64,000 bases of DNA from Acidimicrobiales bacterium (lineage in GTDB: Bacteria > Actinomycetota > Acidimicrobiia > Acidimicrobiales > Iamiaceae), in assembly GCA_030448105.1 (NCBI GenBank), contig JAUJNP010000004.1:154141-218140 (forward strand), given 5' to 3'. The notes under the pieces are model-generated. The model was given only the letters and a program-made list of their open reading frames with translations. It was not told the origin of the DNA and made no database searches. Shown here piece after piece: positions 28,589 through 44,966 of the stretch (its first letter is position 1; each line of letters opens with the position of its first letter). Both the position numbers and the translations under genes were made by a program.

Positions 28589-28792
28589 GTGACGGGGTTG
28601 TGGATCGTGTCCCCCACGGTGGTCATCCTCGGCTGCCTGATCCTGGTCAAGGCCCTGGCCAAGGCGGCCTTGGCGGCCGAATCGATCCGCGAAGAGCTGG
28701 CCCGCCTCGAGCCCGTCAGGGTCGCCTCCGGCGCCCTCGAGGGCGAGACCGCCCGAGTCGGTTCCGCTCGGGAATCGGTGCGGCGGAGGTAG
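28589..28792 (+). CDS. Small membrane-anchored protein
   Basis: 67 residues: an N-terminal membrane helix (WIVSPTVVILGCLILVKALAKA) and a charged tail ESIREELARLEP. Unknown family. Its stop TAG lies inside the -10 box of the following tat gene (TAGGCT), so the two genes are tightly packed but probably have separate promoters. Confidence 0.65.
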   Translation: MTGLWIVSPTVVILGCLILVKALAKAALAAESIREELARLEPVRVASGALEGETARVGSARESVRRR

Positions 28793-28795
28793 GCT
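28790..28795 (+). promoter_or_regulatory. -10 box of tatA/B overlapping a stop codon
   Basis: TAGGCT, whose first three bases are the stop of the upstream gene; 7 bases later is the ATG at 28803. Confidence 0.55.
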
Positions 28796-28802
28796 CCCCC
28801 GC

Positions 28803-29168
28803 ATGTCCAACCTCGGGAGCGGCGAGATCCTCGTCGTCCTGTTGCTCGCACTGATCGTCCTCGGGCCCGAGCGCCTACCCCGGGCTGCCCGCCAGATAGG
28901 CAACTTCGTCCGCCAGGTGCGTCAGATGTCCTCCGGCTTCCAGGACGAGCTGCGCAGCGCCATCGACATCGGCGACCAGCCCTTTTCGCCGGAGGAATCC
29001 CGTATACGACCGCTGCCGTCGGCCACCTCCCTCAGCGCCCGATCGGTGGACGGGGATGACTCCGACGGCGACCTCGAGGCCGACATCCGGGCCCGCAACG
29101 ACGACGTCGAGCCCCATGGCGCCGACCGCTCCGGAGCGGTGACGCCCGACGAGCGGGCCGCCGGCTGA
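28803..29168 (+). CDS. tatA: Twin-arginine translocase TatA/TatB subunit
   Basis: 121 residues with one short N-terminal membrane helix (EILVVLLLALIVLGPERLP), the conserved FG-like hinge replaced by GPERLPRAAR, then an amphipathic helix with VRQMSSGFQDELR. GPERLP is more typical of TatB than of TatA, but only one such gene is present here. It forms the Tat pore with TatC for folded proteins. The acidic C-terminal tail is disordered. Confidence 0.88.
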   Translation: MSNLGSGEILVVLLLALIVLGPERLPRAARQIGNFVRQVRQMSSGFQDELRSAIDIGDQPFSPEESRIRPLPSATSLSARSVDGDDSDGDLEADIRARNDDVEPHGADRSGAVTPDERAAG

Positions 29169-29190
29169 CCCGCGTGGCCGGCCGGCGCCG

Positions 29191-29196
29191 TAGATC
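29191..29196 (+). promoter_or_regulatory. -10-like box (TAGATC) before a six-codon ORF
   Basis: TAGATC is 6 bases before ATG 29203 and 23 bases before the tatC ATG at 29220. The last base departs from TAnnnT (C in place of T; a T lies one base on). The spacing is that of the leaderless genes and points to the small ORF. Confidence 0.35.
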
Positions 29197-29202
29197 TCCT
29201 CG

Positions 29203-29223
29203 ATGAGCACACGGTCCCGATGA
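29203..29223 (+). CDS. Possible six-codon leader ORF coupled to tatC
   Basis: ATG AGC ACA CGG TCC CGA TGA encodes MSTRSR. Its TGA overlaps the tatC ATG (ATGA). No ribosome-binding sequence lies before tatC itself, so ribosomes ending this ORF could restart on tatC. This is inferred from layout only; a single such overlap can arise by chance. Confidence 0.3.
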   Translation: MSTRSR

Positions 29224-30008
29224 GCGCCCAGGCGGGCAAGGCGACCGCGGTCGAGGCCCCGGGCGCCCAGATGACGCTGCTCGACCACCTGGTCGAGCTG
29301 CGCACCCGTCTCGTGCGGGCCTGCCTGGCGGTGGCGGTGGGCGCCATGCTCGCCTGGTTCCTCTACCAGCCGATCCTCAACCTCCTGCTCGGCCCCCTTC
29401 GTGAGGCCGCACCGAGAGGATCGGATCTGGCCGACAAGCTGCTCACCCTCGACCCGCTCGAGCCGTTCGCGGTACGGATCAAGATCACCACCTATGCCGC
29501 CATCATGTTCGCCATGCCGATGATCCTGTGGCAGCTGTGGCGGTTCATAGCGCCCGGGCTCTACTCCAACGAGAAGAAGTACGCCGTCTGGTTCGTGGTG
29601 TGCGCCACCATCCTGTTCGTCCTGGGCGCCGGTATCGCCTTCTGGACCGTGCCCAAGGCGCTCGAGTTCCTCCAGAGCATCGGCGGGGAGGGCAACTTCA
29701 ACCAGTTCTACTCACCGGCGAAGTACCTGCGCCTCATCGTCTACATGATGCTGGCCTTCGGCGTGGGCTTCGAGTTCCCGATCCTGCTCGTTTTCCTGCA
29801 ACTGGCCGGGATCGTCTCCACCGACAAGCTGCGCCAGGCCCGCCGCTACGCCATCGTCGGCATCGCCTTCATCGTGGCCGTGATCACTCCCAGCGCCGAC
29901 CCGATCAGCATGGCCGCCCTCACCGTGCCGATGGTGCTCTTCTACGAGCTGAGCATCGTGTTCGGCCGCGTCCGGAACCGCCGCCTCAGCCGTGCCGCCG
30001 GCGGCTGA
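29220..30008 (+). CDS. tatC: Twin-arginine translocase TatC
   Basis: 262 residues with six membrane helices. It begins TLLDHLVELRTRLVRA, the conserved TatC N-terminus (usual xHLxELRxRL), then FMFAMPMILWQLWRFIAPGLY, with EKKY and FGVGFEFPILLVFLQ. It recognises the Arg-Arg signal. Its 3' end overlaps helY by 17 bases, the same order (tat then helY) as in mycobacteria, where these genes also follow pafABC. Confidence 0.95.
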   Translation: MSAQAGKATAVEAPGAQMTLLDHLVELRTRLVRACLAVAVGAMLAWFLYQPILNLLLGPLREAAPRGSDLADKLLTLDPLEPFAVRIKITTYAAIMFAMPMILWQLWRFIAPGLYSNEKKYAVWFVVCATILFVLGAGIAFWTVPKALEFLQSIGGEGNFNQFYSPAKYLRLIVYMMLAFGVGFEFPILLVFLQLAGIVSTDKLRQARRYAIVGIAFIVAVITPSADPISMAALTVPMVLFYELSIVFGRVRNRRLSRAAGG

Positions 30009-44402: not shown

Positions 44403-44441
44403 AACTTTCTAAGCCGGGGGCCGGTCGGACAACATGCAGCG

Positions 44442-44966
44442 ATGAGCGAGCCCAAGAACCCGGTCGACCATGCGCTCGACCTGTTCGTCTTCGCCCCCCT
44501 CGGCTTCGCCCTAGAGGCCCGCACCCTGGTCCCCAAGCTGGTCGATCGTGGGCGCCAGCAGGTGGACGGCCAGGTCACCATGGCCCGGATGGTCGGCCGG
44601 TTCGCCGTTCAGCAGGGCCAGTCGGAGGCCGGGCGCCAACTGACGAAGGTGCAGGAGCAGACCCTGGGCGTCCTCGCCGATCTGGGGCTGCTGCCCCGTG
44701 AGCCGAGCGGTCCCGCTCGAACCGCCGACGTCGCCCCTGTCGCCGACGTCGATCCCTCCGAGGCCGAAGCTGCGGTCGAGGTGGATGACACCGTGCTCGA
44801 CGACGCCACCCTCGCCATCCCCGACTACGACAGCCTGGCCGCATCTCAGGTCATCCCCCGGCTGGCCGGCCTGGGCGATGGGGAGCTGGAAGCGGTGCGG
44901 GCCTACGAGCGGGCCAAGCGTGGCCGCAAGACGATCCTCAACAAGATCGCCCAGCTCCAGGCGTGA
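44442..44966 (+). CDS. Conserved actinobacterial protein with a terminal helical motif
   Basis: 174 residues. A helical N-terminal half (PLGFALEARTLVPKLVDRGR), an acidic linker, and a C-terminal motif IPDYDSLAASQVIPRLAGLG then LEAVRAYERAKRGRKTIL. That last block is a widespread short motif in actinobacterial proteins, where YDxLxAxxVxxxL precedes an ExxxxRxTIL helix. Function unknown. Its stop overlaps the GNAT start as GTGA. Confidence 0.7.
   Translation: MSEPKNPVDHALDLFVFAPLGFALEARTLVPKLVDRGRQQVDGQVTMARMVGRFAVQQGQSEAGRQLTKVQEQTLGVLADLGLLPREPSGPARTADVAPVADVDPSEAEAAVEVDDTVLDDATLAIPDYDSLAASQVIPRLAGLGDGELEAVRAYERAKRGRKTILNKIAQLQA

Follow-up and report, generated by a model that had tools for sequence, protein, structure and literature searches.

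A six-codon open reading frame ending on the tatC start codon: a candidate translational relay between tatA and tatC in an Acidimicrobiales genome

How ribosomes reach tatC, when its start codon lies 51 nt beyond the tatA stop codon and carries no recognisable ribosome-binding site, is the question raised by a locus in a metagenome-assembled genome (MAG) of the Acidimicrobiales. The window, meaning the whole stretch of 64,000 nt that was analysed (G000:C4:154141-218140), contains on its forward strand tatA (121 aa; 28803-29168; Pfam TatA_B_E, E 1.3e-8), a gap at 29169-29219 and the protein-export gene tatC (262 aa; 29220-30008; Pfam TatC, E 2.8e-65), whose start call is backed by an M/V-S-A N-terminus common to the relatives L032, L004 and L005. 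Within the gap lies the hexamer TAGATC (29191-29196), a possible weak -10 element of an internal leaderless transcript, and a six-base spacer, TCCTCG (29197-29202), separates it from the ATG at 29203 that opens a mini-ORF encoding MSTRSR (29203-29223). The TGA of this mini-ORF (29221-29223) overlaps the tatC ATG at 29220, and the two share the tetranucleotide ATGA (29220-29223). An initial annotation had described the hexamer, its six-base spacing, the mini-ORF and the overlap, and its sequence and coordinates proved to be correct throughout; it had also reported that no ribosome site precedes tatC, and no SD-like motif was seen upstream of the gene. Such an SD-less start is ordinary in this genome, since both a TANNNT box and an SD are lacking in 128 of 233 genes with an upstream gap of 31-70 nt. 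At six amino acids the mini-ORF falls inside the 5-50 aa range of leaderless coupled small ORFs, and the ATGA that its TGA shares with the tatC start is the RTGA linkage of the class described by Shell et al. (2015).

Transcription of the locus can be approached from the upstream gene. A TAGGCT box (28790-28795), 7 nt 5' of the tatA ATG, is predicted to be the leaderless-type -10 element of a tatAC operon, and 48 of 56 Acidimicrobiales relatives carry a TANNNT box within the 5-10 nt upstream of the tatA start, commonly GGTAGGCT and at 6-8 nt. The tatA-tatC interval yielded no terminator-like site. Because this putative leaderless promoter is conserved upstream at tatA, tatC would most simply be the second gene of the leaderless tatA transcript.

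The tatA-tatC junction among relatives

Comparison of 55 distinct tatA-tatC junctions revealed 4-nt NTGA overlaps in 14, gaps of -1 to 3 nt in 10 and gaps of more than 3 nt in 28. In L031, the nearest relative with a tatC (TatC 80% identical), the gap measures 46 nt and holds, in order, the block CCGTAGATCT, 4 nt, an ATG, the five-codon ORF MDGHR and a TGA overlapping the ATGA of tatC. The block is common to the window and L031, and an equally long shared block arose in 27 of 2000 shuffles. In the next relative, L032 (TatC 67%), a 13-codon ORF ends on the GTGA of tatC and no TA box is present. Retention of the ORF and its overlap in related genomes had been proposed as a check on the initial annotation, and both are thus found in the nearest tatC-bearing relative, together with the block, and in the third genome with GTGA in place of ATGA. 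In all three nearest tatC-bearing genomes (the window, L031 and L032) an ATG mini-ORF ends on the tatC start and has its first codon 32-34 nt downstream of the tatA stop, whereas many more distant relatives are without this coupled architecture. No tatC match was found in the same-genus genome G001.

Several gapped relatives, for example L005, L010, L014 and L050, have no mini-ORF within the gap, from which it follows that the mini-ORF is dispensable. A mini-ORF that reaches from an overlap with the tatA stop to an overlap with the tatC start is seen in L033, L020, L100 and L103. The sequence around the tatA stop makes such double overlaps nearly inevitable, and they show no excess; possibly, they are former tatC N-termini after a change of frame. 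Predicted RNA folding of the junction in the window was unremarkable (z 1.05). At L031:2900-2960 the tatA stop codon sits in the loop of a strong hairpin (131-nt stretch, z -2.9), and a weaker hairpin is seen in the window.

Mini-ORFs and leaderless starts across the genome

Across the genome, short gaps hold more mini-ORFs that end on an RTGA start than expected, and this excess is confined to the RTGA frame. Among 85 genes with an RTGA start, a gap of 11-70 nt and no leaderless box of their own, 31 are preceded by an RTG mini-ORF that ends on the overlap, compared with 18.6 expected from shuffles, so that about 40% of the class is excess over chance. The other shifted frame gave 11 such ORFs in the RTGA genes against 19 expected, and genes without RTGA gave 38 against 41.3. 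By Fisher's test, in a comparison devised after the tatC locus had been seen and with gene starts taken from our own ab initio calls, RTGA genes differed from other genes with P = 0.0004 (0.0003 without an alternative upstream start; 0.00002 for strong genes). Each of the two parts of the genome sample showed the trend, though less significantly. Only three of the 31 mini-ORFs have a TANNNT box of their own. A second mini-ORF of this form lies in the window at 44434-44445, where ATG CAG CGA TGA, placed 31 nt past the previous stop, terminates on the ATGA with which the following gene of 175 codons starts.

Leaderless starts are common in this genome. In a 1.9 Mb sample with 1873 ab initio genes, TANNNT was counted 168, 123, 88 and 37 times at 6, 7, 8 and 9 nt upstream of candidate starts, respectively, compared with roughly ten times at other spacings, and about 22% of gene starts have such a box 6-9 nt upstream; no -35 signal was seen upstream of these boxes. 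The statement that TAGATC shares the spacing of other leaderless starts holds to the extent that 6 nt is the commonest spacing, but the hexamer ends in C where the usual box ends in T. TANNNC boxes taken all together are near background and rare beside TANNNT, with only an approximately twofold rise at 6 nt (44 versus about 22). Within a TAGANC subclass, split off by hexamer post hoc after the data had been seen, a distance of exactly 6 nt before RTG was found for eight in-frame starts, compared with about 0.6 per control spacing, and before short ORFs for seven, compared with about 1.6. Rejecting the leaderless reading outright, on the ground that TANNNC is near background, was considered and dropped in view of this TAGANC enrichment at exactly 6 nt. 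Of 18 short leaderless ORFs located near genes, 7 end on RTGA, compared with 10 of 35 at control spacings, which indicates that such endings mostly arise mechanically in this genome. Clearer members of the class than tatC, with a TANNNT box and a short ORF of 5-14 codons placed on an RTGA gene start, are found in G000 at C5:17520 (-), C29:11595 (+), C18:98944 (+) and C4:224256 (+).

Candidate explanations for the tatC mini-ORF

The explanation tentatively favoured here, which we judge to fall a little short of an even chance, is that the tatC mini-ORF is a coupled relay ORF in an opened tatA-tatC junction. The two genes would be transcribed as one operon, driven by the leaderless promoter that is conserved before tatA. 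Many relatives have a tatC start that overlaps the tatA stop or lies only a few bases away from it, an arrangement that would couple both genes; in this lineage the junction appears to have opened to 51 nt, and part of it would be bridged by the six-codon ORF. Ribosomes would reach the mini-ORF by restarting 34 nt downstream of the tatA stop codon, and some might enter at 29203 directly, through a weak internal leaderless start. On terminating at the ATGA they would restart on tatC. The role of the mini-ORF would then lie in its position and not in its peptide. Restart has been reported over gaps of up to about 40 nt at a 3-10 fold lower efficiency, and works best between -4 and +3 (PMC12548453); given these limits, the mini-ORF would replace the gap of 51 nt by a shorter one of 34 nt followed by an overlap. 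Direct support extends to the sequence, the overlap, its conservation in the nearest tatC-bearing relatives, the conserved tatA box and the class enrichment; that the mini-ORF is translated and feeds tatC is what we infer from them.

The initial annotation had proposed a leaderless short ORF delivering ribosomes to tatC by termination-reinitiation. The coupling part of that model is plausible and such mini-ORFs are enriched genome-wide, while the leaderless part is weaker. In its full form, TAGATC would be the -10 element of an internal promoter, the transcript would begin at the A at 29203, and the six codons would be translated leaderlessly before restart on tatC, giving the gene a low, coupled supply of its own. 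An RTG at the 5' end is sufficient for translation in mycobacteria (PMC4633059), leaderless-type short ORFs ending on RTGA occur elsewhere in this genome, and the 6-nt distance, the TAGANC subclass and the retention of CCGTAGATCT in L031 all fit such a start. Nevertheless, the box lacks the final T of nearly all leaderless boxes, no called gene in the sample uses TAGATC itself at 6 nt, the spacer in L031 is 4 nt, a spacing without enrichment, the mini-ORF of L032 has no box, and no sigma-70-like promoter was found in the region. A leaderless -10 role for TAGATC is therefore best described as weak but possible, and an internal promoter as the source of tatC translation seems unlikely. We rate as equally unlikely a chance ORF, in which case tatC would rely on an SD-less start of its own within the tatA-tatC mRNA. 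The composition of the genome provides a ready background for such an ORF: a start codon with A as its next base always supplies a stop in the -1 frame, and at 73% GC there are few other stops, so functionless mini-ORFs on RTGA arise often. Shuffling of the gap in the window yielded an ATG mini-ORF in the right frame in 14-16% of cases, and an ATG or GTG one in about a third, so the tatC case taken singly is not significant. Nor was there a significant excess at the 18 open junctions of the window and its relatives (P range 0.09-0.18), either in ATG ORFs after the tatA stop (3 versus 1.3 by shuffles, P = 0.11) or in RTG mini-ORFs including overlaps (9 versus 7.1, P = 0.18). Starts that lack both SD and box are usual behind gaps of this length and the peptide is not conserved between the window and L031, all of which would suit an accidental ORF; against it stand the overlap retained in the nearest relative despite a changed gap length, and the genome-wide enrichment in the RTGA frame with depletion in the other.

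A missing base in the assembly, splitting a longer tatC that begins leaderlessly at 29203, would also put that ATG one frame away from tatC, and the genome itself is a draft MAG in 49 contigs. Such an error is highly improbable, as the independently assembled L031 has the same -1 register with a different sequence and length.

Extending the relay reading beyond this locus, Acidimicrobiia may use genome-wide relay ORFs of 2-14 codons, selected only for position, that carry ribosomes across opened junctions onto SD-less RTGA starts, with tatA-tatC as one case in which the overlap is conserved while sequence and length drift. This extension is speculative and more doubtful than the local reading. 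If the tatC case were real, the range of leaderless and coupled mini-ORFs, mapped to date in mycobacteria, would reach into a deep, mostly uncultured actinobacterial class, and the arrangement would suggest how genes without ribosome-binding sites stay coupled as operon junctions lengthen. Mini-ORFs of this type are missed by gene finders.

Relation to known coupled small ORFs

No paper was found in the literature on tatA-tatC translational coupling of this kind, although the coupling device itself is already known from mycobacteria. Ordinary -4 nt (NTGA) coupling within operons (PMC12548453) involves the same stop/start overlap and proposed restart, and its direct tatA-tatC form is that of the 14 overlapping junctions described above, whereas in the window it is the six-codon ORF, and not tatA, that makes the overlap with tatC. 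In Mycobacterium tuberculosis, translation of the AUGA-overlapping uORF uPPE2 is required for expression of ppe2 through termination-reinitiation (PMC11260477). The tatC mini-ORF resembles uPPE2 in its AUGA overlap and in the lack of an SD at the downstream gene, but uPPE2 comes with both an SD of its own and a B12 riboswitch, whereas tatC showed neither. Among Mycobacterium leaderless transcripts, "coupled" small ORFs are RTGA-linked more often than expected, and it is the linkage that is conserved and not the peptide (Shell et al. 2015, PMC4633059). Unlike those ORFs, which stand at the mapped 5' ends of transcripts, the tatC mini-ORF lies inside an operon behind tatA and has an atypical box. 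In its architecture, as far as this can be read from the DNA, it nonetheless appears to match them: a short ORF of putative leaderless type, with a TGA that is joined to the next start as RTGA, the linkage being kept while the peptide changes.
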